NCBI GenBank assembly: GCA_016932505.1
Contig: JAFGCT010000033.1
Span: 1-64,000, forward strand
DNA length: 64,000 nt
Direction of reading: 5' to 3'
DNA from: Candidatus Peregrinibacteria bacterium
Lineage (GTDB): Bacteria > Patescibacteriota > Gracilibacteria > UM-FILTER-43-11
Part shown: in pieces, positions 3,001-20,203 of the stretch
How positions within the stretch are numbered: position 1 is the first letter of the stretch
Layout of the letters: each line of letters begins with the position of its first letter
Notes under the pieces: model-generated
Told to the model about the DNA's origin: nothing
Database searches by the model: none
The model's input: the letters and a program-made list of their open reading frames with translations, nothing else
Program-made: the position numbers and the translations under genes

Positions 3001-4086
3001 TTGTCCCCAACTATTAGTCCCACCTTGATCTTTGTGAAAAATATATGCCGAACCTATTCCATCATCTCCAGGTGAGCCTACTATTGCATAATTTCCATTT
3101 ATTATAAGTCCAGTTCCAAAATGGTCACCACTTTCGCCATCGTTTGCAACCAACTTTTTTACTTCACCCCAATTGTCTGTACCACCTTCATCTTTATTAA
3201 ATATATATGCTGAATCAACTTCTGTTCCTACTATCACATTATTTCCGCTTATATCAACAACGGCTCCAAATACATCATCAACAGCTCCATCACTTGCTGT
3301 AATCTTTTTTACTTCAGACCAAGTTCCACCTGAGTTATGAAATATATATGCGGCACCTATGTAATTTTCATCTCCTAATGCACCAACTACAGCATAATCT
3401 CCACTTATAGAAACGGAACATCCAAATTCATCATCAGGGACACCATCGCTGGCAGTAAGCTTAGTTACTTCACCCCATGCATCAGGACCGTCTTGATCTT
3501 TGTAATAAATATAAGCCGCTCCGGTATAAGAATCATTGCGACTTGTTCCTACTATCGCATAATCACCATCAATTGAAGAAGTAAGTCCAAACCAGTCACT
3601 CGCGGCACCATCGCTGGCAAGTAGCTTAGCTACTTCTCCCCAAGCGTCAGGTCCGCCTTCATTCCTGCTAAAAATATAAGCTGAACCAGAGAAACTTCCA
3701 TTATCATCATCTCCATGACCGCCAACTACAGCATAATCACCACTTATAGAAACTGATCGGCCAAAATAATCAAAAGCTTCTCCATCACTAGCAGTTAATT
3801 TTGCCTGCTGACTCCACGTCTCTCCTAAATTATAAAATATATAAGCTGAACCCGAACTTGTTCCATCATCGTCATCATAAATAGCACTCACTATCGCAGT
3901 GTTACCATCTATATCAACAGCACCTCCAAATAAGTCACCTGCAGCATTGTCATTTGAGAAGACAACAAAATATTCATTAATGTCAGCTTTAGTAAAACCC
4001 TCTTTTATTTGGGCGGCAACAATAATTGCAACTACAAATACAACTAGCAGACTTGTATAAGTTTTAAGATATTTTTTAGGAATCAT
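1..4086 (-). CDS. Giant FG-GAP repeat / beta-helix surface protein, C-terminus beyond window
   Basis: The reading frame is open from ATG at 4086 to the window edge, about 1362 codons, and its C-terminus is missing. An N-terminal hydrophobic segment (about residues 9-25) could be a signal peptide or anchor. There follow about 13 FG-GAP-like units of roughly 55-65 residues, each with the pattern D-x-FG-x-S-V-S-I-x-GDYAIVG, then Asp-rich DDDNG, then GSAYIF. They are interrupted near residues 400-460 by a fibronectin type III-like segment. After about residue 950 the protein becomes Asn/Tyr/Ile-rich with NosD-like right-handed beta-helix repeats. The DDDNG loops resemble integrin-type calcium sites. 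Known FG-GAP proteins are extracellular, so a surface adhesin or decorating protein is likely; the ligand is unknown. No Shine-Dalgarno precedes the start. Confidence 0.85.
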   Translation of the reverse strand, partial: MIPKKYLKTYTSLLVVFVVAIIVAAQIKEGFTKADINEYFVVFSNDNAAGDLFGGAVDIDGNTAIVSAIYDDDDGTSSGSAYIFYNLGETWSQQAKLTASDGEAFDYFGRSVSISGDYAVVGGHGDDDNGSFSGSAYIFSRNEGGPDAWGEVAKLLASDGAASDWFGLTSSIDGDYAIVGTSRNDSYTGAAYIYYKDQDGPDAWGEVTKLTASDGVPDDEFGCSVSISGDYAVVGALGDENYIGAAYIFHNSGGTWSEVKKITASDGAVDDVFGAVVDISGNNVIVGTEVDSAYIFNKDEGGTDNWGEVKKLVANDGESGDHFGTGLIINGNYAIVGSPGDDGIGSAYIFHKDQGGTNSWGQLAKLVPSDGASEDSFGSVAIDGAYAIVGSVTDDNYNGVDAGSIYFFDVPPVSPSNFGITNITSTTATLTWDDNSSDETEFRIYQSTDSTQGSVDYTTAANAESQAVTISDTNPNYFWLTSYNSVTSQESIATSMCYKYSSTYGKMLPCDGEADDQFGYGVAVSGDYAVVGANYDDDAGTDSGAAYIFRKSGNYWVQVKKHIGNAAGDQYGASVAIDGDYIVVGSQFSDVIGSDYGAAFVYYKDEGGIGNWGLQSTLISSDANIWDYFGYSVSIRGDYIIVGNPYNDDAGGSSGAAYIFERTGSAWNQVAKLTASDAAGDDFFGYSVSTDGDYAIVGAYGDDDNGSSSGSAYIFEKDYPSADAWGQRSKLTASDGLANDWFGVSVAIDGNYAVVGAFYDDNVEGTNAGAIYLYERNGGTWDTETKILPNYLGSNYYFGHSVAIRGDYLLVGAYYYYSGYSYLFKKDDVSSDWGELFYFAGVDSASGDRFGRNVAIGDANLIVGSYLDDDNGDSSGSAYSYNYIDNISPEFSGLKNCVASVTTGDYHWLYAPETLALTTLSCDTTGFSGGITGNDAAYLTNLTSLTLTPSGPYGSCNSITGLGSGNSDLAGFAPGLTLTWTNNDTYSAGVAESAMNEIGILRGAGATVIHNINYEDCTNGIDDDDDGLIDSADIYCRGPQLYFDGETGTNNHECTETNPCDNLYNLMGSHWDSIAFRELNNRNAYSHLDVYVRGNGVGSPIINNMTGDPTTFSTITIQPWGDALPVIISSLYVYIPNVTVQGFEITNGVYIYGNDFTLKDSYIHGLSGIYMYGSNHNIYNNYINGINGYALYITGSGKDIYNNIISNSRYSAIYYVGSSNNTIINNTLYNNNTSLGGSYADIHIVSPGATVKQNLVYNNLGSETFNYNGGITVNDIATPSPLTGQTAADWGTGNNFIASADPFTNVSSATSWATAADAFRLISGALFGVSSPDLLTPLTDYLSETRDNVVAGALNFTSSGTV

Positions 4087-4174
4087 TTTTTGTTTTTTTT
4101 ATGTTTTCTCCACATTATACCATATTTAATATATTTATGCAAGTATCAAAAATACCACAGTTTACACGTACATT

Positions 4175-4318
4175 GTCTGAACTGTGATTTCTTATGATTT
4201 AAGTGATTAATTCAAATGATTTTAATCCGATTATTAACTGAACATTACAAGTTGAAATTTATGGATTGTTGATAATCATAGACAGAATCATTCCAATCAC
4301 ATAAATCACAGTTCAGAC
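4175..4318. repeat. ORF-less inverted-repeat element (GTCTGAACTGTGATTT family), copy A
   Basis: GTCTGAACTGTGATTT at 4175 is mirrored by AAATCACAGTTCAGAC ending at 4318. Both arms continue inward as imperfect TGATT-type words. The right end overlaps the 3' end of purD and supplies its TGA stop. The same termini flank the GxxExxY gene at 31546-32063 and recur at 22478-22605. The element sits between two leftward genes, in a 226-bp gap with no other feature. Confidence 0.85.
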
Positions 4319-5620
4319 TTTCCTAATCTCATCCATCATATCAACTCTCTTTTGAATTAGTTCTTTTGTTCCAATGTCTTTTCTATGAAAAACAGGACCT
4401 TTAACAGAATTAACACCTTGCTCGGCAAGTCTTTCAGCATCTTCTATAGTGTCTCCGATTCCAACAAAGGCGACAGTTCGTGAACCGCCCATAATTAGTT
4501 TTCCATCAACTTCATTTACCGATGCATAATACATTTTCACCCCATCTGGCAATTCACCGATAGTAATCTCGGTTCCCTTTGTTGGGTTAGTCGGATACCC
4601 CTCTGGTACTGCATATTTAACAACAGTGGCTTTTCCGGCAAATCGAATATCTAATTTATCAAGTGTACCGTCAATAATTGCCTTACAGATATCCACATAA
4701 TCGGTTTGTAAAATACTAAGTGCATTCATAGCTTCCGGGTCACCAAGTCTCGCATTATATTCAATTAACTTAACCCCGTTTTTTGTAACAATAAAACCGC
4801 CGTACATAATTCCCTTAAAAGGTATACCAAGCTCCTCTTTAATAGCCTTAGCAGTCTGAACTGTAATTTCATGAGCATCCACTAAATCCTGTTCAACTAA
4901 AAAAGGAAGATTTCCTGGATAATTGTAACAACCCATACCACCGGTGTTTGGCCCAGTATCACCCTCAAAAGCTCTTTTGTGATCCTGAATAGGCGGCATA
5001 TCTACGACATGTTCTCCATCTACAAAACTCATCAGGCTAAACTCTTGTCCAACAAATTTTTCTTCAATAACAACTTTTCCATCCGATTCAAGACAGCTCT
5101 TTGCATATTCAATACCTTCTTCAATTGTATTAAAGTGATCACCCTGTACATGAACGCCCTTTCCGCCGGTAAGTCCATCCGCTTTTACTACAATTTCACC
5201 AAGTCCTTTTGCATATTCCAGCATTCCTTCTTCACTTGTAAAAGTTTTAAAGTCCGGATTCCCCGGAATATTATATTTTTTTAATAAGTCACGTGTAAAT
5301 GATTTTGAGCTCTCAAGCTGAGCACATTTGCTAACGGGTGAAGCCGAAGGTATTCCAATTTCCGCGAGTTTATCACCAGCGCCATCTGCAATTGGGTTAT
5401 CCGGACCCACCACAGCAAAATCGGGCTTCTGTTCTTTAGCAAAATCCTGTATCGCCTGCATGTCCGCAAGGCTACCAACCCTATAAGCAGAAGTAAGTTT
5501 TTTTATACCGGGATTTACCGCACTAGCGTAAACAATCAGTTCAGTACATTTTGGTGACTCTGCCAATTTCTCCGCCATTATATGCTCTCGAGCACCATTT
5601 CCAACTAAAAGAATTTTCAT
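4313..5620 (-). CDS. purD: Phosphoribosylamine--glycine ligase (GAR synthetase)
   Basis: PurD makes glycinamide ribonucleotide from phosphoribosylamine, glycine and ATP, the second step of purine synthesis. The start is placed at MKILLVGNGAREH, the family N-terminus; a longer frame to 5710 adds 30 residues unlike the family. ATP-grasp features follow in order: VGPDNPIADG, KADGLTGGKGVHV, EEKFVGQEFSLMSF, a glycine-rich TGPNTGGMG and EYNARLGDPEAMN near the C-terminus. Its 435 residues match the usual length of about 430. It lies downstream of purF, which makes its substrate, in the same orientation. The last codons (AAA GTC TGA) run into the adjacent inverted-repeat element, which provides the stop. 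Confidence 0.96.
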   Translation of the reverse strand: MKILLVGNGAREHIMAEKLAESPKCTELIVYASAVNPGIKKLTSAYRVGSLADMQAIQDFAKEQKPDFAVVGPDNPIADGAGDKLAEIGIPSASPVSKCAQLESSKSFTRDLLKKYNIPGNPDFKTFTSEEGMLEYAKGLGEIVVKADGLTGGKGVHVQGDHFNTIEEGIEYAKSCLESDGKVVIEEKFVGQEFSLMSFVDGEHVVDMPPIQDHKRAFEGDTGPNTGGMGCYNYPGNLPFLVEQDLVDAHEITVQTAKAIKEELGIPFKGIMYGGFIVTKNGVKLIEYNARLGDPEAMNALSILQTDYVDICKAIIDGTLDKLDIRFAGKATVVKYAVPEGYPTNPTKGTEITIGELPDGVKMYYASVNEVDGKLIMGGSRTVAFVGIGDTIEDAERLAEQGVNSVKGPVFHRKDIGTKELIQKRVDMMDEIRKV

Positions 5621-5676
5621 TATTAACTTTATTACTGATATAAAATAGCCGAGCGATGAATTTGTGAGCGCGCGTA

Positions 5677-5723
5677 GTTTCGACGCCGCTTTGGGTCTTG
5701 TGGGTCCCAAAGTTAGACGAAAC
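5677..5723. repeat. Nested hairpin upstream of purD
   Basis: CTTTGGG (5689-5695) pairs with CCCAAAG (5706-5712), and an outer GTTTCG (5677-5682) pairs with CGAAAC (5718-5723). It lies in the purF-purD spacer and would be part of the purD leader. It has no U-tract on either strand, so it is more likely a repeat or leader structure than a terminator. Confidence 0.6.
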
Positions 5724-5774
5724 GAGCCTAAGCGAACGAATGAAGAGTGAGATCAGATATTTTGGAGGTACTGG

Positions 5775-5792
5775 AACCTTTTTTAAAGGTTT
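5775..5792. terminator. Small A/T-rich hairpin just after purF
   Basis: AACCTTT and AAAGGTT pair immediately 3' of the purF stop. The stem is short and no long U-run follows on the minus strand, so this is a weak terminator candidate. Confidence 0.3.
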
Positions 5793-5800
5793 CAGAGAAG

Positions 5801-7300
5801 TTATACTAGATTTAATTGTTCCTCTTCTTCCTCACCCTCCACATAAGCACAAGACCTCTGAGTACGGCGAGATACAGCATTTGATAGAAGTATTTCTTTA
5901 GTAACATTTTTACATTTATACTCACCATCAAAACATGCCATACACATATCTTTAAGCTTTGGATTACCGGTAATGCACGCCTTTTTAACATCATCAATTT
6001 CACCGTAAAAAAGTTTATCCGCACCAATCCATTTTCTAATTTCTTCAATTGAACTATCGGAAGCAATTAGTTCTTGTGGTGTAGGAATATCGATTCCAAA
6101 TAAACAAGGAAATTTAACAGGCGGAGCATAGGAGGCAAAATATATTTTTTTTGCACCAGCATCTTTCATAACCTGAATAATTTTTTTTGAAGTGTTGCCT
6201 CTTACAATACTGTCATCTACAAGCAGAATTTTTTTCCCATCAATCTCCATTTTCATTGGATTCAGCTTGTATCTGATAGATTTTTTACGGATTTCTTGCC
6301 CTGGCATAATAAATGTTCTTCCTATATATCTGTTTTTTATAAGACCTTCACGATAAGGAAGACCTAATTCTTCCGACATAGCCATTGCGGCAGTTCTTGC
6401 AGAATCAGGAACTGGCATTACTACATCAATATCAATATTTTCTTTTTTAATTCTTTTAGCTAAATATTTCCCCATTCTTATTCTTGCCTTATAAACAGAT
6501 ATTTCATCCAAAACAGAATCAGGTCGGGCAAAATAGATGTGCTCAAATATACATGGAGTGTGATTGGATTTTGTAATAACTTTTGAACTGATTTTTCTGG
6601 TTTTTTCATCTACAAAAATAGCTTCACCAGCACCGACATCTCCTTCTAATTTATATCCAAGTAAATGAAGAGCAATAGATTCAGAAGCAAATATATAATC
6701 AGGCCTTAATCCAACCATTTTTTTACCATACTGAAGAGGTCTAATTCCGTGTGGATCACGAAAAGCAACCATACCGTAACCCGCAATGTAAACAACAACA
6801 CTATAAGCTCCTTTAGCTCTTTTATGGACACTTTCAACAGCATCCCATATATGCTTGCTTTCTAGCTTATCAATATTCTGCCTGCTTAGACTTTTTGTAA
6901 AAAGGTTAAGCAGTACCTCAGCATCAGAATCAGAATTAATTAATCTGTGATCTTTTTCAAAAAGTTCCTTTTTAAGCTCCGGAGAATTAAAAATATTTCC
7001 GTTGAAACTTAAAATTACACCAAACGGTGACTGCCCCAAAAATGGCTGGCATTCATTTGGATCCCCCGAACCCATTGTGGAATATCTGGTATGTCCCAAT
7101 CCTATATTACCGGTAAGTTTACTCATGTGTCTTGTATGAAACACATCCCGAATCAAACCAAGGTTTTTACGGATATGGAATTTTCCGTCATAAGTCATTA
7201 TTCCGGCCGCATCCTGCCCGCGATGCTGCATCGTCATAAGACCGTCATATAAATCCTGCGCAACAGGACTATCGCTAATTATTCCGATTACTCCACACAT
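5801..7300 (-). CDS. purF: Amidophosphoribosyltransferase
   Basis: PurF transfers glutamine-derived ammonia to PRPP, the first committed step of purine synthesis. The N-terminal class II glutaminase domain starts MCGVIGI, so Cys2 becomes the catalytic nucleophile directly, without the 11-residue propeptide of the Bacillus enzyme. Glutaminase motifs MQHRGQDAAG and GHTRYST follow. The phosphoribosyltransferase domain has KKILLVDDSIVRGNTSKK (PRPP loop). Cysteines in TPCIFEHIYFARPDS, FPCLFGID and DMCMAC match the [4Fe-4S]-type family rather than the cluster-free E. coli type. The acidic C-terminal tail (GEEEEEQLNLV) is unusual. It is 499 aa, upstream of purD on the same strand, with no Shine-Dalgarno. 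Confidence 0.97.
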   Translation of the reverse strand: MCGVIGIISDSPVAQDLYDGLMTMQHRGQDAAGIMTYDGKFHIRKNLGLIRDVFHTRHMSKLTGNIGLGHTRYSTMGSGDPNECQPFLGQSPFGVILSFNGNIFNSPELKKELFEKDHRLINSDSDAEVLLNLFTKSLSRQNIDKLESKHIWDAVESVHKRAKGAYSVVVYIAGYGMVAFRDPHGIRPLQYGKKMVGLRPDYIFASESIALHLLGYKLEGDVGAGEAIFVDEKTRKISSKVITKSNHTPCIFEHIYFARPDSVLDEISVYKARIRMGKYLAKRIKKENIDIDVVMPVPDSARTAAMAMSEELGLPYREGLIKNRYIGRTFIMPGQEIRKKSIRYKLNPMKMEIDGKKILLVDDSIVRGNTSKKIIQVMKDAGAKKIYFASYAPPVKFPCLFGIDIPTPQELIASDSSIEEIRKWIGADKLFYGEIDDVKKACITGNPKLKDMCMACFDGEYKCKNVTKEILLSNAVSRRTQRSCAYVEGEEEEEQLNLV

Positions 7301-7330
7301 TTGAAAAATTTTATGAAATAAAATTTTTTA

Positions 7331-7396
7331 CATTTAACATGTAACATTTAACATTTAACATTTAAGTCAAAGGTCAAATGTCAAAGGTCAAATGTT
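7331..7396. repeat. Short-word inverted array between purF and folD
   Basis: Tandem CATTTAA copies (7331-7364) are followed by GTCAAAGGTCAAATGT words (7365-7396), which include the complementary sense. The array fills the spacer and overlaps the last codons of folD: Asn-Ile-stop is encoded by the word AACATTTGA. Confidence 0.75.
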
Positions 7397-8227
7397 GCGC
7401 TGGCGCTCAGTAGCTCTTATGGTGTTAAGGATCAAAGCGGCAACGGTCATAGGGCCAACGCCACCTGGAACAGGGGTTATATAGCTAGCTTTTTTGCTGA
7501 CATTCGGGTAGTCCACATCGCCACATAATTTGCCTTTACTATTACGATTCATACCTACATCAACAACAATTACTCCATCTTTAACCATATCCGCAGTAAT
7601 CAGATTTTCCTTTCCAACGGCTACTATTAAAATATCCGCACGTTTGGTGTGAGCGGATAAATCTTTTGTATAAATATGACATGTTGTAACAGTCGCGTTG
7701 CGGTTTAGCATCATCATAGAAATTGGTTTTCCTACAATATTGCTATGACCTACAACAACAACTTCTTTGCCCTGAATAGGAATATTATAATGGTCGAGTA
7801 GTTTTACAATTCCAAGTGGTGTAGCTGGTGGTAAATCTTCAAATTCAGGACTTAAAAACATTTTACCAATATTATAAGCATGAAAACCATCAACATCCTT
7901 TTCTGGTGTAACGGCCCTAATAACATCAGGTACATAAATATGGTCAGGCAAAGGTAGCTGAACAATTAATCCATTAACCGTTTCATCCTTATTTAATTCA
8001 TCGATTTTTTTAAGAATCTCTTCCTGTGTGATTGAAGTGGAGAAGTTATATTCGACATATTCAATTCCAGACCTTTCACATGCTTTCTTTTTATTTCTAA
8101 CGTATGCCATTGAAGCCGGATTTTCGCCCACCAAAATCACTGCCAACTTTGGCTTTAATTTTTCAGCTTTTTCCTTAACTGAATCTATAAGCTGTTCCGA
8201 CAATGCTTTACCGTCCAAAATTGTCAT
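7388..8227 (-). CDS. folD: Methylene-THF dehydrogenase / methenyl-THF cyclohydrolase
   Basis: FolD interconverts 5,10-methylene-, methenyl- and 10-formyl-tetrahydrofolate. It can supply formyl groups for purine synthesis and for initiator Met-tRNA. The start at MTILDGKALS fits the family; a longer frame to 8257 adds only MRAIFYFPPP. Visible motifs are YVRNKKKACE with the catalytic lysine region, VQLPLP, the Rossmann dinucleotide region VVVGHSNIVGKP and the C-terminal PVPGGVGPMTVA. The length is 279 aa, typical. It clusters with purF and purD on the minus strand. A pyrimidine-rich stretch, not a Shine-Dalgarno, precedes the start. The stop codon lies in a repeat word. Confidence 0.96.
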   Translation of the reverse strand: MTILDGKALSEQLIDSVKEKAEKLKPKLAVILVGENPASMAYVRNKKKACERSGIEYVEYNFSTSITQEEILKKIDELNKDETVNGLIVQLPLPDHIYVPDVIRAVTPEKDVDGFHAYNIGKMFLSPEFEDLPPATPLGIVKLLDHYNIPIQGKEVVVVGHSNIVGKPISMMMLNRNATVTTCHIYTKDLSAHTKRADILIVAVGKENLITADMVKDGVIVVDVGMNRNSKGKLCGDVDYPNVSKKASYITPVPGGVGPMTVAALILNTIRATERQRNI

Positions 8228-8317
8228 AGGAGGGGGGAAATAAAAAATTGCCCTCAAAAGGCTAAATTCAGTATATCAGAAAGAAAAATAAACAAAAGAA
8301 AATATTATACTGATTTA

Positions 8318-8346
8318 TTGACATAAATAAAAATATATTGTATAAT
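8318..8346 (+). promoter_or_regulatory. Consensus sigma70-type promoter
   Basis: TTGACA (8318-8323), a 17-bp spacer and TATAAT (8341-8346) are perfect consensus boxes. The ATG of the next gene is 27 bp downstream of the -10 box, leaving a leader of about 20 nt without a Shine-Dalgarno. Confidence 0.9.
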
Positions 8347-8372
8347 TAAAACATAAAAAATAAAAAAATAAA

Positions 8373-8867
8373 ATGAATCAAGCTCAAACATCACAACTAG
8401 AATCAAATAAACAGCCAGGTTTTGATACAATAATCAGAAATCTGAAGGAAAAAGGAACACCTGATGCAGTAAGGCTTGCTGGTGATATTGAACATAATAG
8501 AAATCGTGCAGTAGATTTAATATCCGGTAAATCCGAAAGGGCTCGAGAGGTAAAAGAAGAAGCAAGGAGAAAGTTCATTATAAATTTGGCTTATCGGGAT
8601 GGCGATATGACAAAGGGGTATAAAGAAGCGATTTATCTGACAAAAGAGAAACAAGATGAAATGAGTAAGCTTGGTATAAATTATAAATATGAAACTGATG
8701 TTACTGTTATAGGTAGTATTCAGGGTGATTCCATACCATTCATAACGAATGAAGGTCATACGGGGTTTTTGTATATTAAAGCGAATGCTGAAGACGGTAC
8801 ATTTATTTTTACATTAAGAAAAAGCATGAAAAGAGATGAAGATGAAACTCAGATAAATGCCGCTTAG
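8373..8867 (+). CDS. Uncharacterised 164-aa protein
   Basis: I do not recognise this protein. It is soluble, charged and predicted helical in its first half (EARRKFIINLAYRDGDMTKGYKEAIYLTKEKQDEM), then has an alternating beta-like segment (VTVIGSIQGDSIPFITNEGHTGFLYIKA). There is no signal peptide or membrane segment. It is expressed from its own consensus promoter, which suggests strong transcription. It is convergent with tmk, whose stop lies 3 bp away. Reality as a gene is supported by the promoter, A-rich start context and ordinary codon use. Confidence 0.75.
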   Translation: MNQAQTSQLESNKQPGFDTIIRNLKEKGTPDAVRLAGDIEHNRNRAVDLISGKSERAREVKEEARRKFIINLAYRDGDMTKGYKEAIYLTKEKQDEMSKLGINYKYETDVTVIGSIQGDSIPFITNEGHTGFLYIKANAEDGTFIFTLRKSMKRDEDETQINAA

Positions 8868-8870
8868 CTC

Positions 8871-9455
8871 TTAAATCTTTCCTGAAACAACCCCCCAAAT
8901 CTCCTCATCACAAACAGGAATACTTCTACTTGAATCTAGTAAATAAAAGTTTGGATATTCTTCGGAAAGTTCGTGATAGTTTTTGCCGATTTTAATTAAT
9001 TTTTCCCTTTTTTCAAATAATTCAGGTGTTTCACCTCTTCCTCCAATTCTATTTAAACAAGTATCCGTGTCACATTCACAAAGAATTGTTAGGTCGGGAA
9101 TCGGAAAGTTTTTACTTACTTCTTTTAGCCAATCAACATCCACGCTTAATCCGCCGTATGCCAGTGTAGAAAAAAAGTATCTATCGGTAATAACTATCTT
9201 ATCTTCTGCAAGCGCAGGTAGAATCTTATTTTTTAAATGGTCAGCCCTATCTGCGGAAAATAAAAGCTGAAGGCTTTCAGCGGATATTTCATATTTATGT
9301 TGTAGAACATCACGTATTAATGTTCCTATTGGTTCACTACCCGTTGGTTCATTCGTTAAAAGAACAGAATGTCCTTCTGCTTCAAGTCTTTCTGCCAGAT
9401 GTTTTGAATGTGTTGTGGTACCTGCACCATCTAAACCCTCGAATGCGATGAACAT
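8871..9455 (-). CDS. tmk: Thymidylate kinase with Lys-less P-loop
   Basis: Tmk phosphorylates dTMP to dTDP. The N-terminus MFIAFEGLDGAGTTTHSKHL matches the family P-loop, except that the usual GAGK(S/T) lysine is Thr13. NEPTGSEPIGTLIR corresponds to the family's (R/N)EP-G motif, and TDRYFFSTLAYGG is the DRYxxS-AY motif. LID-like residues and GGRGETPELFEKRE follow. The 194-aa length is slightly short. Everything else looks intact, so this is probably an active variant and not a pseudogene. A 15-bp tandem repeat lies directly upstream. Confidence 0.92.
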   Translation of the reverse strand: MFIAFEGLDGAGTTTHSKHLAERLEAEGHSVLLTNEPTGSEPIGTLIRDVLQHKYEISAESLQLLFSADRADHLKNKILPALAEDKIVITDRYFFSTLAYGGLSVDVDWLKEVSKNFPIPDLTILCECDTDTCLNRIGGRGETPELFEKREKLIKIGKNYHELSEEYPNFYLLDSSRSIPVCDEEIWGVVSGKI

Positions 9456-9460
9456 AATTT

Positions 9461-9604
9461 ATTACAAGATTAATTATTACAAGATTAATTATTACAAAAT
9501 TATTTTATACGATGATTGGTAAAACTCCAATCAAATCCGATTTTTTCCTCCGATTAATCTTGTAATTTTCAATCTTCAATTTTCAATCTTCAATTATTTG
9601 TAAT
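9461..9604. repeat. 15-bp tandem repeat with inverted right half
   Basis: ATTACAAGATTA occurs at 9461 and 9476 and as ATTACAAAATTA at 9491, with a 15-bp period. The complementary words (GATTAATCTTGTAAT, then TCAATCTTCAATTT copies) occupy 9552-9604. The array fills the divergent tmk/lipoprotein spacer and so contains both promoters. TATAAT at 9604-9609 is a likely -10 box for the rightward gene. Confidence 0.8.
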
Positions 9605-9633
9605 ATAATGCAAAGCACTTAAACTAAAGAACT

Positions 9634-11253
9634 ATGAAAAAATTACTATCCCTTGCTTTATTCTTTTCTTTTGCCTTTGCTTTATCTGGTTGCGGAAATA
9701 ATCCTCCAAGCTTGGAAGACCGCGTTGCTAGCGAATTGCAGGACGGAGAAATTTCGTATGATGGAATAATTGAACCTTTGGAAATTGATGTATATCAGCA
9801 GGGTACGCACCAAATTAGAACAGAGGGTAATGAACTTGTAATAATTCAGAGTCAGAGTTACGACCTAAATAAATTCCTTGATAAACAAGTAAAAATAAAA
9901 GGTAATTTGGCAGAACAGAAAGGTAACGCAGAACCTGTCTTAAATGTTACCGAGGTAAAATTGGAAGACGGTGAGCTGGTAGGGGAATTGGAGACATATG
10001 ATAATAGCCTTTATGGATTTAGTTTCGAATATCCAAAAATTTGGGAACTAGAAAGCATCTCTGGTGGGGTTTCTTTGGTAGATGAAGACTATGAATGGGT
10101 AAAAATAGAAGTGTTTAGCGATAAGGCGGATTTAGATAGTTTCGTTAATACTCAGGAAAACGAAGAAGGGACTTCCGTAACGATTGCTACACAGAGATCG
10201 ATAAGATTCTCAGATGGAGAAACTCTTAGAATCTATATTCCAAATCCTCCAAAAAAGAAGGTTTATAGAGTTGTGTTCAATGGTGACAAAAGAGATTCAG
10301 ACGGTAATAAGGAACTTTTCTATAATTTACTTGAAAGCTTCAATCTGATTTACAAAACAGTTCGCACTGGTGATAAATGTGGAGGGAAAGACAATATAAA
10401 ATGTGGAGAGGGGTATATATGTGAATTAAGCAGTGCGGAGGTAGATGCATCCGGTGTATGTGTATTGGTTGACGATGAACAAAACAAGGATTGTCCGATG
10501 ATTCCGCCACCTCTTGAATGTGAAGATTACAGAGTATCTGAATACAGCAAAACAACTGGTTGCCCATCACGATATGAATGTACTGATGATGGCATTAGCT
10601 CATTTCAGGATGAAAATAAATACGTCGATATAGATTCGCTTATTGGTACCATAGAAGAATATCAGGATAAAATTCTGCCGGTAAGTGATGTTACAATTAT
10701 TCAATATGAAATTTCTGAAAATGAATCTTTAATTGCAGTTGTTTATGGAAATGAAGAAATGGAGTATAAAACTCTTTATTCTTTTGCACCTTCTGCCAGT
10801 GAATATAATTTTATTGAAAAAGCACATTTTGAAGAAGGCGAAGGTGGAGGTTGGAGGCTTATTTCGGGAAAAGATGTACAGAGCGGTCTTAATAAAGATG
10901 TAGTTAAAGCTGAAGGCACTATAAAAGATTCAGCTCCAAGAGAAGTAAGTAGCGATATGAGCTTGTATGAAAATCAATTCAAAGAATTCACAATGGAATA
11001 TCCGAAAAATTGGTATTACAGAAGTTTTGGGGCAATAAATAATACCCGTTGGATTGTGGGTTTTGCCGAAAATGAGGTTGAGAATCTAAGTGATGCTGAT
11101 ATTACTGTTAGTATCCTGGATGAAAAACCGGAAAATACCCCAAGCGGGATGTATTTAACCGTGAAAAATAGAGATGACGACACTATTTACGTTGTAGAAG
11201 GTCCAATTGATTTAAAGGATACAATTAATAAAATGGCAGATTCGATTGAATGA
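9634..11253 (+). CDS. Lipoprotein with two PsbP-like segments and a Cys-rich linker
   Basis: The N-terminus is a signal peptide ending in the lipobox LSGC (Cys20), so it is probably membrane-anchored and outward-facing. Residues 125-235 (SLYGFSFEYPKIWEL...) and 445-538 (NQFKEFTMEYPKNWYY...) have the aromatic 'F-x-YP-x-W' pattern seen in PsbP-like or DUF-type lipoproteins. Between them lies a cysteine-rich stretch (about residues 248-318) with about ten Cys, probably disulphide-bonded. Acidic throughout. It is transcribed alone between tmk (divergent) and infB. The molecular role is unknown. Confidence 0.8.
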   Translation: MKKLLSLALFFSFAFALSGCGNNPPSLEDRVASELQDGEISYDGIIEPLEIDVYQQGTHQIRTEGNELVIIQSQSYDLNKFLDKQVKIKGNLAEQKGNAEPVLNVTEVKLEDGELVGELETYDNSLYGFSFEYPKIWELESISGGVSLVDEDYEWVKIEVFSDKADLDSFVNTQENEEGTSVTIATQRSIRFSDGETLRIYIPNPPKKKVYRVVFNGDKRDSDGNKELFYNLLESFNLIYKTVRTGDKCGGKDNIKCGEGYICELSSAEVDASGVCVLVDDEQNKDCPMIPPPLECEDYRVSEYSKTTGCPSRYECTDDGISSFQDENKYVDIDSLIGTIEEYQDKILPVSDVTIIQYEISENESLIAVVYGNEEMEYKTLYSFAPSASEYNFIEKAHFEEGEGGGWRLISGKDVQSGLNKDVVKAEGTIKDSAPREVSSDMSLYENQFKEFTMEYPKNWYYRSFGAINNTRWIVGFAENEVENLSDADITVSILDEKPENTPSGMYLTVKNRDDDTIYVVEGPIDLKDTINKMADSIE

Positions 11254-11355
11254 TTAATGATACAATCGAAGATTCATAATTGGAATTAATCTTTACTTTA
11301 ATTTATTCAAGTGATACTCTTTTTGAGCTTATCCAACATATAAGCGAGTTAAACT

Positions 11356-13923
11356 ATGCATTTAAACGAAATCGCCAGAGAGTTACGAATTACGACACAA
11401 GAATTGCGTCGGGAACTTGCGAAAACAAATTTTGGGATAAGTCCTACGGCTCATGAAATTGACGACGCCCTTGCTACAGGGGTTACTCGCTTTTTAAAAG
11501 GGAAAATCAAGCCAACTTTAAAGGCAAGAAAAGTTGCAGTTATTGGTAAAGACGGAAGTGTTAAAGAAGAGGTAAAAAAAGATGAGGAGGGAAATGCTGA
11601 TGAGGAGGGTGAAAGAAAGGAAATAATTATTGAAAAAAAACAGGAGAAGAAAAAACCGCCAGTAAAAAAGGCTATGACAAAGAAAGAAAAAGAGGAAATC
11701 GAAAGAAAAGAAAAAGAAGCTGAGCTAGAAAAATTAAGAAAAGAAGGAAAATTAGTTGAACAAGATAGAAGTCATGTTCCGAAAAATGAAGACAGAAGAC
11801 CAAGCGAAGGGGCGGCCTTACCTGTTTCAAGAAGAATCGAAGTTGAAGAGGGGGAAAAAGGTGGTGTAGATAATCAGGATTTACCGAAGCATTATTATAA
11901 ATCCAAAAAAAGGAAGAAAAAGAAAGGTAAGCAGGCGGAAGAGGATTTAGTACTTGAAACAATGCAGAGGCATCCGGGAAGAAAAGTTCGAATTGCAAAG
12001 GTAAGTTATGAAGAGGAAAACGCAGATGGAATGAGTGCCGAAGAAATTGCAGTAGCTAAAGAAATGGATCGTGAAGCTTTCAGAGCGCAAAAGAAGGGTC
12101 GTGCAATCAGTCAAAAAAGAGGTCCAAAAGAGCAACCTCAAATAAAAGCTAAAACCGGAACAATCGAAATCCCAACAATTATTAGTGTTAAAGAATTTTC
12201 AGAAAAATGTGGAATACCAGTGCCTAGTGTAATCGCATGTTTGTTTAGAAACGGTATTATGGCCACTATTAACCAGAAGCTTGATTTTGAAACAGCTGAA
12301 ATCATTGCAGATGAGCTTGGTGTAAAAGTTAAGAAAAAAGAGGAGGAGGCAAGGGCTGAAGATCTGCTCGAAGGGGATATGGCAATTCTTCTTAAGGATA
12401 GTAAATCAAAACTTAAAACACGTCCTCCTATTGTGAGTATTATGGGGCACGTTGACCATGGTAAAACAAAAATCCTCGATTACATTCGTAAAGCAAACGT
12501 GGTTGCAACGGAAGCAGGAGGTATTACTCAGCACATTGGAGCTTATCAGGTAGAAAAAGATGGAAATAAGATTACTTTTTTGGATACTCCTGGTCATGAA
12601 GCCTTTACTTCAATGCGTGCACGTGGTGCAAAGGCTACTGATATTGCAATTCTCGTTGTAGCGGCAGATGAAGGTGTAAAACCACAAACAATTGAAGCTA
12701 TTAATCATGCAAAGGAGGCCGGAATTCCGATAATCGTAGCAATTAATAAAATTGATAAACCGAATGCAAATCCAGACAAAGTAAAAGGCGAACTTGTTGA
12801 ATATGGTCTACAGTCTGAAGATTGGGGAGGGAAAACAATTATGGTTCCTTGTTCCGCAATAACAGGTGAAGGAATGGATAAGCTTCTTGAAATGATTTTA
12901 CTTGTTGCCGAGATGGAAGATTTAAAGGCAAATCCAAATCGTCTTGCTGTAGGTACTGTTGTGGAATCTCATCTTGATAAATCTCTTGGTCCTGTTGCCA
13001 CAATTCTTGTAAATACCGGTACACTTGAAGTTGGAGACAATATAGTAGTAGGAACAGCGCTAGGCCGTGTTAAAGCAATGCACGACCACAGAGGTAGAAT
13101 TCTAACTAAAGTACCGCCATCTGGTGCAGTTAGAATTTCAGGTCTTTCCGAAGTTCCTCAGGCAGGTGATATTGTTCAAGCATTTAAAACTGAAAAAACT
13201 GCAAAAGATCGTGCAGCTGAACTGACAAAGGTAATGGCAGAGCGTAAAGAAAGCATGGGCGGTTCAATGGTTGAGCGTATTGTTTCTCAAATAAGCAGTG
13301 GTGAAATGAAATTCCTTAAAATTGTACTTAAGGCAGATACCAAGGGTTCTCTTGAGGCAATTATGCAGGCTCTTCAAAAAATTAAATCAGATGATGTTGC
13401 TGTTAAGGTAATTCACTTTGGAGTAGGAAACATTACCGATACGGATGTTATTATGGCTTCAGCTAGTCAGGCATTACTTTTCGGCTTCCATATTAGCCCT
13501 ACCGCACATGTAAAAAAGATTGGAGAAAGAGAGGGGATTGAAGTTAAAAACTACACAATCATCTATAAACTAATAGAGGATGTTAAGGCTATTATTTCCG
13601 GAATGATGGCACCAGAGATTAAAGTTGTAGAGCTTGGAAATATTGAAATTAAAGAAATATTCCTTAATAAAAAATCATGGGTTATTGCCGGAGGAAAGGT
13701 TACAAAAGGAACAGTTGAATCCAAATCTATGGCTCGCGTTACTCGCAAAGGTGAATTATTGTTTGAGACTGAGCTTGAGTCACTAAAACATGTAAAGGAA
13801 GACGTATCCGAGCTTGAAAAAGGCTCAGACTGCGGTGTTAAAATAAAAACACCAGTTCCTGTTGAACCAGGTGACGTTCTTGAAGTGTTTAAGATTGAAA
13901 AGATAGAGAGGTCACTGGATTAA
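11356..13923 (+). CDS. infB: Translation initiation factor IF-2
   Basis: IF-2 is the GTPase that places fMet-tRNA on the 30S subunit and promotes 50S joining. An N-terminal IF2_N-like helix-turn motif ([20 protein letters not shown]) is followed by a long Lys/Glu-rich linker (about residues 65-270) and a second IF2_N copy ([28 protein letters not shown]). The G domain starts near residue 356 with GHVDHGKT (G1), DTPGHEAF (G3, near 412) and NKID (G4, near 465). Domains II-IV follow to residue 855. In most bacteria infB follows nusA; here nusA lies over 30 kb away on the other strand. No Shine-Dalgarno is present. Confidence 0.97.
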
Positions 13924-13935
13924 TTGTTGGAATGA

Positions 13936-14025
13936 GTTACAACTAGTTTCTACCGAAAATATGTCCGATAACATACCTATTCTTGTTATAAATCGGGAAT
14001 AATGTCCGTTAGAAACGAGTTGTAC
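13936..14025. repeat. Long imperfect palindrome downstream of infB
   Basis: GTTACAACTAGTTTCTA (13936-13952) mirrors TAGAAACGAGTTGTAC (14010-14025). An inner CCGATAACA (from 13965) mirrors TGTTAT and ATCGG (13984-13996). The result is a 90-bp multi-step hairpin right after the infB stop. It lacks a terminal U-run and resembles an element end more than a terminator. Confidence 0.7.
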
Positions 14026-14100
14026 GAAATACTGCCCACTTTTCTTTAGAACGATGTATAATACTAAAGGAACTTTTAGAACATTTTTTAAGCAAAAAGA

Positions 14101-14925
14101 ATGAAAACAGATAATGAATTTCAATTATTTGAAAAAAACGACAATGGATTTATTGAATTAATTTATCCACCCAACAATGGAATGAGTGCAAAGGATGTTG
14201 GTGAAGCAATATTAGGTATGCAATTATGCTTAGCTGAAATTGCTAGGGTTAGTGGTATTAATAACATTGAAATTATTGTTTACCCCATAGAGAAGGGGTC
14301 ATTAAAAACTATTTTTGCCTATGTTAAAAAAGATGGATGGAAAATAGTAGTAGGAATAGATATTGTCTTTAATTTGATTAACAATGGATTTGGGGTAATT
14401 GAAAATTTTGGTGCAAATAAAGCTCACAATCTTACAACAGAAGTTATACAATCCGTGAAAGACCTTAAAGTATTGGAACTCTGCAAGAGTAAGAATTTTA
14501 TATATGGTGGACAAAAGATTGTTCAACCATTAAAAGAAAATATCCAAAGCGTTAAAATACAATATGGCAAAGATAATTTTGAAATTGAATGTGAAAATAA
14601 ACAAAAATTTTACGAAGATTTGATTATCGAACCAATATTCCCAGAATTAGAAAATGGTAAAGAGATAACAATTGTGGGTGAAATTACCAGAATGAACAAG
14701 GGCTATGGTGATTTGGGTTTTCAATATAAAAACCGAACTTTAAAATGTGTACCTTGGGACATCAGAACAAGTGTTACTCAATATCATGAGTATATTGAAG
14801 AAAACCAAGTTCAATTAAAAGGCATAGTAAGTAGGTCAAGTATTTTTGACGTTCCAGAAATTAGTATAATATCGATTCAAAGAATTGAACCAAATCAATC
14901 AACGTTATTTGAAGAAGGTAAATAA
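14101..14925 (+). CDS. Uncharacterised 274-aa protein inside inverted repeats
   Basis: I do not recognise this protein with confidence. The N-terminal half (about residues 1-110) is mixed alpha/beta with NGMSAKDVGEAILGMQLCLAEIARVSG and GSLKTIFAYVKKDGWK. One hydrophobic stretch near residue 80 (IVVGIDIVFNLINNGFGVI) may be buried or membrane-associated. The C-terminal half is beta-rich, with an OB-like segment (KEITIVGEITRMNKGYGDLGFQYKNRTLKCVPW). No catalytic motif is evident. It begins right after the left arm of a perfect 15-bp inverted repeat, within a bounded segment, which suggests horizontal origin. Its style (an accessory gene with long uncharacterised domains) would fit a defence or mobile-element cargo protein, but that is only a guess. 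Confidence 0.7.
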   Translation: MKTDNEFQLFEKNDNGFIELIYPPNNGMSAKDVGEAILGMQLCLAEIARVSGINNIEIIVYPIEKGSLKTIFAYVKKDGWKIVVGIDIVFNLINNGFGVIENFGANKAHNLTTEVIQSVKDLKVLELCKSKNFIYGGQKIVQPLKENIQSVKIQYGKDNFEIECENKQKFYEDLIIEPIFPELENGKEITIVGEITRMNKGYGDLGFQYKNRTLKCVPWDIRTSVTQYHEYIEENQVQLKGIVSRSSIFDVPEISIISIQRIEPNQSTLFEEGK

Positions 14926-15084
14926 TAATATTTGTTCATTAAAATGGAGGCATAAGTTCTTTGTTGCCAGTAAATTGTGGTTTAATTAACAACTAGCAAT
15001 TACTCGTTCCATATGCTTAGTATTTTTAGTAGGCATTTGGGACGTAGTAATTCTACGTTCGTTTATTTCTTAACCACCATTCAC

Positions 15085-15198
15085 ATGGCTAAAACCAAGA
15101 AGGGTAAAAAGATAGTTGAGACACGTTCTCATTATCGTACACTCAAAAATGGCAAACGAGTTCTTGTAAGAGAGCATCGCAAGTCAACACCTAATTAA
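15085..15198 (+). CDS. Small basic 37-aa protein (RSHYRxLxNGKRVxVRxHxR)
   Basis: The peptide MAKTKKGKKIVETRSHYRTLKNGKRVLVREHRKSTPN has a Lys/Arg-rich pattern seen in many tiny conserved proteins of CPR and other bacteria. Such proteins are proposed to bind nucleic acid or ribosomes, but their function is unknown. The start is chosen at the AKTKKG methionine; the longer frame from 15013 adds 24 residues that look like translated spacer. It lies inside the bounded segment described above, 160 bp after the 274-aa gene. Confidence 0.55.
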   Translation: MAKTKKGKKIVETRSHYRTLKNGKRVLVREHRKSTPN

Positions 15199-15321
15199 TA
15201 GTTAGGATAACCTTATGTCTCCTTTTTAGTGAATAGAGAAAGATAAAATGTTCTAAAAGGCTTTATTAGATTGAAAAATGGGCATTACTACGTACAACAC
15301 GGGCTATAAGATTTGCTCGCT

Positions 15322-15903
15322 AAATAAAATTAATTTAAAATTCCATGGATTATCTAATCGTATTACTTAAAATACTCACACCTTTTATATTAGGCTTATT
15401 AGCCTACAGATTCCTTCCTTCATATGTAGAACAAAAAGGTAAAAATTTAGCCACAAAAGAAGATATTGGTAAAATTACTGACGAAATCGAAAGTGTGAAA
15501 AATTTATATAAACAACATTACGATCTTTCAAAAACCGAAAGGGCTTTTTATGATGAAATGATTAAGGCAATTTATAATTTTGTCGCAGAAATTAAAAAAT
15601 ATGAATATGAAAATGGAAAGGATTCTGCAACAAAAGAAGTAATGAAAGGGGACGAGGATTTACGTAATAAATTTTTCGAATTTGTAAATGCAGCTAATGA
15701 GATTTTAGCAAAAGCTTTTGTATTTTTAAAAGAAGAGAATTATATGCTCCTGAAAGAAGCATTGAAGGTAGACAATAGCTTCGCCGCCATGACACGAAAT
15801 TTATTGTATGCTATGAGAAAGTCTATTCATCCCAACACAAAATTAAGCGCTGAAACAGACACTAGGGAAATAAGTTATTAGAAATTTTGAATTAATTTTA
15901 TTT
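15322..15903. repeat. 22-bp inverted repeat tightly bracketing one ORF
   Basis: AAATAAAATTAATTTAAAATT ends 2 nt before the ATG at 15345, and its mirror (15882-15903) begins one base after the TAG stop. About 20 of 22 positions match. The arms are A/T-rich, so chance is a concern, but their exact placement at both ends of the ORF is notable. Confidence 0.6.
15345..15881 (+). CDS. Membrane-anchored coiled-coil protein, 178 aa
   Basis: One N-terminal transmembrane helix (about residues 4-22, LIVLLKILTPFILGLLAYRFL) is followed by VEQKGKNLATKEDIGKITDEIESVKNLYKQ. That motif occurs in a widespread family of small single-pass proteins in accessory regions. The rest is predicted all-helical and charged, with a Phe/Tyr-rich mid section. 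No enzyme motif is visible. The gene is framed by inverted repeats directly at start and stop, next to another repeat-bounded segment. A link to mobile or defence functions is possible but unproven. Confidence 0.7.
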   Translation: MDYLIVLLKILTPFILGLLAYRFLPSYVEQKGKNLATKEDIGKITDEIESVKNLYKQHYDLSKTERAFYDEMIKAIYNFVAEIKKYEYENGKDSATKEVMKGDEDLRNKFFEFVNAANEILAKAFVFLKEENYMLLKEALKVDNSFAAMTRNLLYAMRKSIHPNTKLSAETDTREISY

Positions 15904-15936
15904 TTAAACGCTCGCTCATACAAATTCGGTAGCGAT

Positions 15937-15949
15937 GCGGCGTTGCCGC
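15937..15949. terminator. GC-rich hairpin between converging genes
   Basis: GCGGC and GCCGC pair around a GTT loop between the 178-aa gene and yggS, which converge here. There is no strong U-tract; it could act bidirectionally. Confidence 0.4.
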
Positions 15950-16000
15950 GATATTATACCATCACAAAACTTCGCCCAAACAGAAACGTTATACCCTCGC

Positions 16001-16639
16001 TCACCCAAACAACCCCTTTCCAATTCGCACCATAGTCGATCCTTCCTCAATCGCAATTTTGTAATCACCACTCATACCCATGGAAAGATATGTGATTTGT
16101 GAATTGTGATTTTTGATTTGGTCAAATATCTGTTTGAGTAATTTAAAACACTTACGGATTTTTTCTTCATCGTTAGATTTCACTCCAATCGTCATTAAAC
16201 CGATTAATTTAATATTTGGTAACTTGGATACCTTATTAATTAAAGAAATAGCCTCATGTGGCGATACACCGCTTTTTTGTGCTTCTCCGGATGTATTTAC
16301 CTGAATCATGATTTCCATCGTCTTATTTAGCTTCTTACACTCCTCATTAATCATTTCTGCCAGCTTAAGGGTATCAACACTCTGAATAACATCAAAATGC
16401 TCTACAACGTCCTTAACTTTGTTAGACTGCAGATGCCCGATGAAGTGTTTAGTGGCAAATGGGGGAATAAGGGGGATTTTCTCTTTAGCTTCCTGCCACT
16501 TACTTTCCCCAATATTAATAATCCCATTATTAATTACCAGCTTTATATCTTCAGCTGTTTGATTTTTTGTTACTGCAACAATGACAACGGATTCTTTTAC
16601 ATCTGATTTTATTCTTTGAATATTCTCGTAAATGCTCAT
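16001..16639 (-). CDS. yggS: YggS/PLPBP-family pyridoxal-phosphate homeostasis protein
   Basis: This family binds PLP without catalysing a known reaction and affects vitamin B6 and amino-acid homeostasis. Visible motifs are VAVTKNQ with the PLP lysine, INIGESKWQE (family: GENYVQE), FIGHLQSNK, IQVNTSGEAQKSG, LIGLMTIG and the C-terminal LSMGMSGDYKIAIEEGSTMVRIGKGLFG. The length is 212 aa, slightly short. Two loops are odd: KIPLIPPFATK is encoded by a CCCCCTTATTCCCCC word, and KNHNSQITY by AAATCACAATTCACAAATC, the same heptad word that fills intergenic spacers elsewhere. This suggests repeat capture in surface loops. Confidence 0.93.
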   Translation of the reverse strand: MSIYENIQRIKSDVKESVVIVAVTKNQTAEDIKLVINNGIINIGESKWQEAKEKIPLIPPFATKHFIGHLQSNKVKDVVEHFDVIQSVDTLKLAEMINEECKKLNKTMEIMIQVNTSGEAQKSGVSPHEAISLINKVSKLPNIKLIGLMTIGVKSNDEEKIRKCFKLLKQIFDQIKNHNSQITYLSMGMSGDYKIAIEEGSTMVRIGKGLFG

Positions 16640-19462: not shown

Positions 19463-20203
19463 ATGCATCCGCTAATCCGAGAAGAGCAAAAAAAGCAATT
19501 AAATAAAATACCTGAAATTAAAGCAGGTTATACTGTTCGTGTAAGTCAAAGAATCAAAGAAGGTACAAAAGAGAGAATCCAGAATTTCGAAGGTCTTGTT
19601 ATTAAAGTTGGGCATGGCGAAGGTGTTGAAAAAACTTTCACAGTTAGAAAGATAGTTGAAGGTATTGGTGTTGAGAAAATTTTCCCTATACATTCTCCAA
19701 ATATCAAAAAATTAGTTGTTATTAAAAAAGCTAAAGTCCGCCGTGCAAAACTATATTATATGCGTCAGCGTTCAGGTAAGTCAGCCCGCTTAACAGAAAG
19801 GCATGTTACTGATGAAGAGAGAGCTAACGAAGAAGCTAAGATGGATGCGCTTATACAAGAGGCAGTAAAGGCTGAGGAAAAGCGTAAGAAGGAAGAAGAG
19901 GCTAATAATCCTGTAGAAGAAACTGTTGCTGATGAAACAACTGAGGAAGTAGTAGAAGAGGCAACTGAGGAAGTAGTTGAAGATGCTGCAGAAAAAGCTG
20001 AAGAGACCGAAACCAACGCAGAGACACAAGCAGAATCCGACGTAGAGACACAAGTAGAATCTGACGTAGAGGCGAAGGTAGAATCCGACGTAGAGACACA
20101 AGCAGAATCTGACGTAGAGACGCAAGCAGAATCCGACGTAGAGGCGAAGGTAGAATCCGACGTAGAGACGCAAGATCTTGCGTCTAAGGAGGAAGCTGCT
20201 TAA
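19463..20203 (+). CDS. rplS: Ribosomal protein L19 with a long acidic repeat tail
   Basis: The first ~115 residues are canonical bL19 ([46 protein letters not shown], then [18 protein letters not shown]), which sits at the 30S-50S interface. The usual length is about 115 aa; this frame is 246 aa. The extension is Glu/Ala/Val-rich and ends in six copies of an 8-residue unit (A/V)ESDVE(T/A)(Q/K). Codon use stays in frame throughout. The tail probably projects from the ribosome or is removed; no function is known. Confidence 0.95.
20030..20185 (+). repeat. Six 24-bp coding repeats ending in a 20-bp perfect palindrome
   Basis: Six 24-bp units occupy 20030-20173 in the rplS tail. They run into AGACGCAAGATCTTGCGTCT (20166-20185), which is perfectly self-complementary. 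The unit end (GTAGAGACGCAAG) is identical to the left half of the palindrome, so tail units and palindrome share an origin. Similar GTAGAGACGCAAGAT palindromes are, to my knowledge, dispersed repeats in other bacteria. Confidence 0.85.

Follow-up and report, generated by a model that had tools for sequence, protein, structure and literature searches.

The window, the whole stretch of 64,000 nucleotides analysed here, corresponds to the initial 64 kb of contig C2 in a Candidatus Peregrinibacteria genome of 1.35 Mb and 39 contigs. The locus of interest lies between infB, which is found in 19 of the 19 genomes searched, and a yggS-type gene, and comprises a palindrome, two nested pairs of inverted arms and several open reading frames (Table 1). 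The outer arms (14019-14038 and 15279-15298) match at 17 of 20 positions and, when extended to 14044 and 15273, at 22 of 26, while the inner arms match at all 15. These arms and the enclosed ORFs of 274 and 37 amino acids are all present as described in the initial annotation, which had taken them for a 1.28-kb segment ending at 15298.

Table 1. Features of the infB-yggS locus; attI, attC, crossover and cassette-end labels are predictions.
Feature	Position	Strand	Basis or remark
infB	11356..13923	+	855-aa ORF; resident gene upstream of landing site
Landing-site hairpin (attI/attC-like palindrome)	13938..14024	+	DNA fold; homologous hairpins elsewhere
attI-like core TGTCCGTTAGAAACGAGTT	14003-14021		Right half of infB hairpin
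Predicted left crossover G^TT, cassette start	14019..14020	+	Constant/variable break
Left outer arm, extended (R' cassette end)	14019..14044	+	22/26 against right arm
Left inner arm CTTTTAGAACATTTT	14073..14087	+	15/15 inverted repeat
274-aa cassette protein ORF	14101..14925	+	
37-aa basic protein ORF	15085..15198	+	
Right inner arm	15245..15259	-	15/15 inverted repeat
Right outer arm, R'' box TACGTACAAC at end	15273..15298	-	
attC 5' half: spacer A, L'' CGGGCTATAAG, GCTCGC	15299..15320	+	
Gene-bearing internal attC branch	15321..15909	+	Inverted arms and flanking GCTCGC direct repeats, read from sequence
178-aa protein ORF, hydrophobic N-terminal stretch	15345..15881	+	
attC 3' half (terminal structure, L', R'), crossover G15988^TT	15910..15995	+	Covariance model R1
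yggS-type gene (Ala_racemase_N)	16001..16639	-	Pfam E 1.8e-26; right flank of insertion

The 274-aa protein belongs to no Pfam or NCBIfam family in profile searches, in agreement with the initial annotation, and yields only weak PHROG matches (best E 3e-6) and a remote match in a Vibrio megaplasmid (E 3e-3). Pattern searches of genome and viral contigs return no relatives, and AlphaFold2, run without relatives, gives a mean pLDDT of 35. The 37-aa basic protein matches PHROG 21154, to which no function is assigned (E 3e-9), and the N-terminal third of the 178-aa protein has matches among hypothetical proteins encoded on plasmids of Vibrio, Burkholderia, Priestia and Sporolactobacillus. No function is assigned to either the 274-aa or the 178-aa protein by Pfam, NCBIfam, PADLOC or PHROGs.

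Used as a query on the whole genome, the palindrome behind infB gives short strong matches on contigs C12, C30 and C24. Contig C24 encodes a divergent 271-aa tyrosine recombinase (12711-13526, minus strand), so that a recombinase, which the initial annotation could not recognise, exists in the same genome; its location on a different contig of a fragmented assembly counts against linking the two. The protein matches Phage_integrase (E 9e-41) and integrase_gron (E 2.9e-56, yet under that profile's cut-off), its best profile match being XerA_Arch at 215 bits (cut-off 220), and the TIGR02249 integron integrase profile aligns in two pieces at 191 bits (cut-off 265). Integrons are gene-capture systems defined in practice by an IntI carrying an extra domain, and it is in the region of this IntI-specific domain that about 43 residues are missing: recombinase residues 173-202 align to 176-248 of IntI4 (2a3v), 29 residues against 72, leaving the protein without the domain. 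From their protein sequences, we take its neighbours to be infA, rpsM, rpsK, rpsD, rpoA, rplQ, rplM and rpsI.

An attI-like site, CACGTCCGTTAGAAACTAG^TTAAATG, places its core 111 bp upstream of the integrase start codon. Beyond it extends a run of genes without known function, with attC-like sites between them, for example CCGCCAAC-A-GCGGTATAT...ATATACCGC-AAAC-GTTGTAC. The recombinase gene, an attI with cassettes leading from it, and attCs with both fold and G^TT are all found in this genome. Among the class genomes searched, about one in three encodes a close relative of the integrase (41-77% identity); a distinct Xer-like gene, less closely related, is found in most class genomes. The integrase family also extends to Moranbacteria, Nomurabacteria, Peregrinibacteria, Dojkabacteria, Wolfebacteria, WWE3, Magasanikbacteria and Gracilibacteria, and in some genomes of the window's class the integrase or Xer gene reads through TGA, as in Gracilibacteria; we take the window's genome to belong to Patescibacteria close to these. 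In genomes G007, G010, G012, G004 and G008 and in Peregrinibacteria, Dojkabacteria and WWE3 loci, the integrase start is preceded, at a distance of about 90-270 bp, by an attI-like sequence whose end is a core of the GAAACGAG^TT type. On C24, a second copy of the attI core with three mismatches is also observed at 13489-13506 (minus strand), within the first integrase codons (MAVRNELR) and inverted relative to attI.

The palindrome behind infB, which the initial annotation had placed just outside the segment, spans 87 nt and belongs to the predicted landing site. As single-stranded DNA it folds with -14.2 kcal/mol (z -3.4), pairing almost perfectly and lacking the asymmetric spacer of the array attCs, and may act as an attI, an attC or a site of another kind. 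The 19-bp core TGTCCGTTAGAAACGAGTT recurs exactly behind clpB (C12) and a glmU-like gene (C30) and differs from the C24 attI at two positions; specifically, the sequence at the crossover, TGTCCGTTAGAAACGAG^TT, is repeated behind clpB and glmU and nearly so at attI. The hairpin as a whole aligns with hairpins behind secA (C6; fold z -6.5) and in genome G011 (C57), with homologues also at clpB and glmU. At the infB, clpB, glmU and attI loci, the sequence is constant to the left of G^TT and cassette-specific to its right, which predicts a left crossover, and hence a cassette start, at G14019^TT. One cassette follows each of the clpB and secA hairpins, and no attC is found at the glmU hairpin, apparently an empty copy of the landing site. 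The dispersed copy in G007 is identical to the attI core of that same genome; core and integrase therefore seem to change together.

Relatives supply the corresponding state without a cassette. In G011, about 320 bp downstream of infB comes a yggS-type gene, as on the right side of the window segment, with no cassette between them, and the 274-aa gene stands behind infB in none of the family relatives inspected. An infB locus free of the cassette, of the sort that the initial annotation had proposed to look for, thus exists in G011, and the conserved infB-274-aa synteny without arms that would have spoken against a cassette is not seen. Integron cassettes can also enter non-classical attG sites, as reported in the portion of PMC12444791 that cites Loot 2024, and the left junction of the C8 cassette (GCGTATAATAACCA^GTT) is unlike attI; the window cassette could accordingly sit at a casual genomic site of this kind, with no dedicated landing hairpin. 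This is unlikely, however, given that the infB site has an exact 19-bp core in common with two other loci, that the overall hairpin is common to the infB, secA and G011 sites, and that the glmU site is apparently an empty copy. The infB hairpin is thus more probably a site dedicated to cassette landing than a casual site.

The attC sites define a family with a covarying fold. An alignment of 24 sites, taken from integrase-bearing CPR loci or from the window's own genome, has 93.9% of cells paired in the proposed R and L stems, with double changes in 12 of 16 pairs. The covariation score reaches 0.501 against 0.110 when shuffled (0 of 500 shuffles attain the former), and controls with slid partners stay at or below 0.075. 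A first, looser home-made detector performed no better than shuffles and was dropped for a stricter L-stem detector, which returns 3 matches in 226 kb of shuffled DNA. Covariance model R1, built from the 24 sites, identifies 12 sites in the window's own genome at E below 0.02, one of them in the window (15853-15995; 25.1 bits, E 0.0022 in 308 kb) and outside the training set. Across 98 class genomes, an attC at E 0.001 or better occurs in 30 of 34 with the integrase and 15 of 64 without it (Fisher p 4.5e-10), and the association persists when genomes that contributed training sites are removed (22 of 26 vs 15 of 64, p 1.3e-7). Two attC matches fall on the 4.7-kb contig C16 of G000, beside an IS110-like ORF and a glycoside hydrolase that looks to be of Bacteroidota type; C16 may reflect a binning error or contamination, and no conclusion rests on it.

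Within the window, the model finds only the 3' half of the putative attC; the 5' half lies at 15290-15320, with the 178-aa gene between the two. The right arm is followed by A-CGGGCTATAAG-ATTT-GCTCGC, inverted arms (TAAATAAAATTAATTTAAAATT.../...AATTTTGAATTAATTTTATTTTTA) around the 178-aa ORF, a second GCTCGC and a normal attC 3' half. Since the predicted cores are G14019^T and G15988^T, the unit would run to about 15990 and take in the 178-aa ORF, extending beyond the end assigned by the initial annotation. The attC resemblance suspected there was correct, with the qualification that the GTTA near 15200 is no recombination core.

The 5' half is nearly identical to that of an attC in G012 (CGGGCTATAAGATTCGCTCGC), whose L' pairs perfectly, and the R''-L'' sequence of the right outer arm recurs at C24:18258-18281. 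The window's own L'' (CGGGCTATAAG) and L' (GCCCAAACAG) pair poorly, which indicates that this attC is eroded or chimeric; with its L stem eroded, current mobility of the window cassette is doubtful. Attachment sites of similar construction occur elsewhere: a 289-nt attC on C13 of the same genome combines a perfect L stem with a small ORF inside, a 629-nt attC in G012 has a perfect L stem (CGGGCTATAA/TTATAGCCCG) and an internal lipoprotein-like ORF, and in a 562-nt attC of Wolfebacteria long inverted arms flank a 118-aa ORF. The control for this long-attC scan gave one shuffled match in 856 kb. On balance, the 178-aa gene is likely to be embedded in an internal branch of the attC. Its interpretation as a second ordinary cassette is less favoured, as its ends carry neither G^TT nor a complete attC and the C13 and G012 parallels favour embedding. 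The window contains one recognisable attC, against the two or more within 4 kb, without an integrase, that characterise a CALIN. On C12, a PhnA-domain (YjdM) gene (3690-4031) is located immediately 3' of the attC.

Cassettes of this kind start at G^TT and finish in ...AAC, and both ends carry inverted repeats longer than the seven bases of the classical R box. The ends read GTTATACGAAATACATGTTTT / AAAACATGTAAATCATATAAC for the C12 cassette, GTTATATGAAATAAACAAATTAA / TTAATTTGTTTATATCATATAAC for C8 and GTTAGCCGACATATTATG / CATAACACATCTGCTAAC for C24; judged by sequence, the window's outer arms (GTTGTACGAAATACTGCCCA / TGGGCATTACTACGTACAAC) are cassette ends of the same kind. The initial annotation had suggested searching for the arms elsewhere, and they prove not to be private to the segment, forming part of a cassette-end family spread over several genera. 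Exact matches to the pattern TGCCCAYTTTTC-N12..40-CTTTTAGAACATTTT number seven and are spread over five genera of the family (G000, G007, G010, G012 and G016), around different genes, while the reversed-pattern control gives 0; the inner box CTTTTAGAACATTTT is part of one particular family of cassette ends. In G012 this end family directly follows attI, with cargo including a NucC-like nuclease. In G007 (C48, about 2680-12720), a holA-like gene is followed directly by two cassette ends spaced about 10 kb from each other, which enclose an SNF2 helicase with a PLD domain, an Eco57I-type methylase, a PD-(D/E)XK nuclease and a reverse transcriptase/maturase. Separately, Candidatus Wolfebacteria CP011209 contains at 7700-10000 several copies of a repeat of about 190 bp (GTTACGCAAAATGTCGTTCGGC...AAAGCTCCACGTT), which resembles a short gene-less cassette with its own attC.

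The inverted repeats of about 70 bp at the segment's termini, in which two boxes are conserved, and the recurrence of the same ends around different cargo, once about 10 kb apart, would also suit a transposon or MITE-like element mobilised by a transposase in trans. Such an element is very improbable here, as the segment contains no transposase ORF, no target-site duplication is present at 14019/15298, and independent loci share the conserved left flank with its match to attI, a pattern not expected of a transposon target. In addition, at least four other cassettes of the same genome have unrelated ends, all starting at G^TT and finishing in AAC followed by attC. Each arm pair taken alone is only moderately improbable, since among 300 dinucleotide shuffles of the region 17/20 is reached six times and 22/26 and 15/15 once each; both termini aligned end to end outscore 2000 of 2000 shuffles, and the decisive reason to accept the arms as real is the recurrence of the end motif across genera. 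A reading as ordinary resident genes, in which the inverted repeats arose by chance and a transcription terminator follows infB, could appeal to the 1-6 hits per 300 shuffles but is scarcely credible when end motif, core and attC recur across loci and genera and the genes are missing behind infB in relatives.

The segment is very likely an integron gene cassette moved by a C24-type integrase, and the impression in the initial annotation that it behaves like a gene cassette is borne out by the attI-like core, the cassette ends and the attC family. The comparative evidence shows an integrase, an attI, an attC family with covariation, homologous landing sites and the absence of the cassette from relatives; we infer that this integrase moved this cassette, together with the choice of strand and the crossover point. 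In the proposed mechanism, the C24 integrase would act on a circular cassette, recombining its folded attC with the G^TT core in the landing hairpin. The outer and inner arms would represent the R' and R'' cassette ends, which would pair with each other in the circular form. By analogy with integron biology (PMC8946536), the folded bottom strand of attC would react with the landing core, allowing a single entry orientation. The cassette DNA would join to the right of the core with its TTGTACG end first, its attC remaining at the far end, so that cassette and attC would come to lie at one of the dispersed attI-like hairpins, with infB on one side and yggS on the other.

Like the sedentary chromosomal integrons of Vibrio, this system combines a divergent tyrosine recombinase with an attI upstream of its start, one-way cassettes, and imperfect palindromic attCs with R/L boxes, a G^TT core and an asymmetric spacer. 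It differs from them in a recombinase without some 43 residues around the IntI-specific domain, in cassettes dispersed behind housekeeping genes, in extended end repeats and in genes inside some attCs. In size and in its best profile match, the C24 integrase corresponds to the XerA (NF040815) recombinases. XerA acts in the resolution of chromosome dimers and is not known to use attC arrays, and integrase-bearing genomes hold a separate Xer-like gene as well. With CALINs and attG-inserted cassettes the window shares the lack of an adjoining integrase, whereas insertion occurs at a recurrent attI-like hairpin, not at scattered casual sites. The integrons of archaea resemble it in their uncultivated hosts, in recognition from attC structure and in many attCs lying apart from an integrase; unlike the C24 integrase, however, archaeal IntIs are reported to retain the IntI-specific domain (Ghaly 2022, PMC9668308). 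That paper makes no mention of Patescibacteria or CPR, and the literature searched, which included few subscription papers and preprints, yielded no account of integrons in CPR/Patescibacteria.

By its predicted architecture the system is an integron, lacking the IntI-specific domain as one of the defining features. This extra domain is held necessary for IntI activity in the passage of PMC8352920 that cites Messier and Roy 2001. If arrays of well-formed attCs do stand beside a domain-less integrase in several CPR lineages, folded-site cassette capture would not need the domain, and this would explain why domain-keyed searches overlook such systems. It is an evenly balanced question whether Patescibacteria harbour a distinct integron branch with a short integrase, several attI-like hairpins behind essential genes and gene-carrying attCs. 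Such a system would provide bacteria of reduced genome with a dedicated route of gene capture, and related cassettes carry restriction-modification and NucC-like nuclease genes.

In the window, Rfam matches comprise a tRNA only, and a promoter and terminator scan remains at chance level. A ribosomal protein L19-like ORF at 19463-20203 bears a long C-terminal tail of imperfect AESDVETQ repeats.
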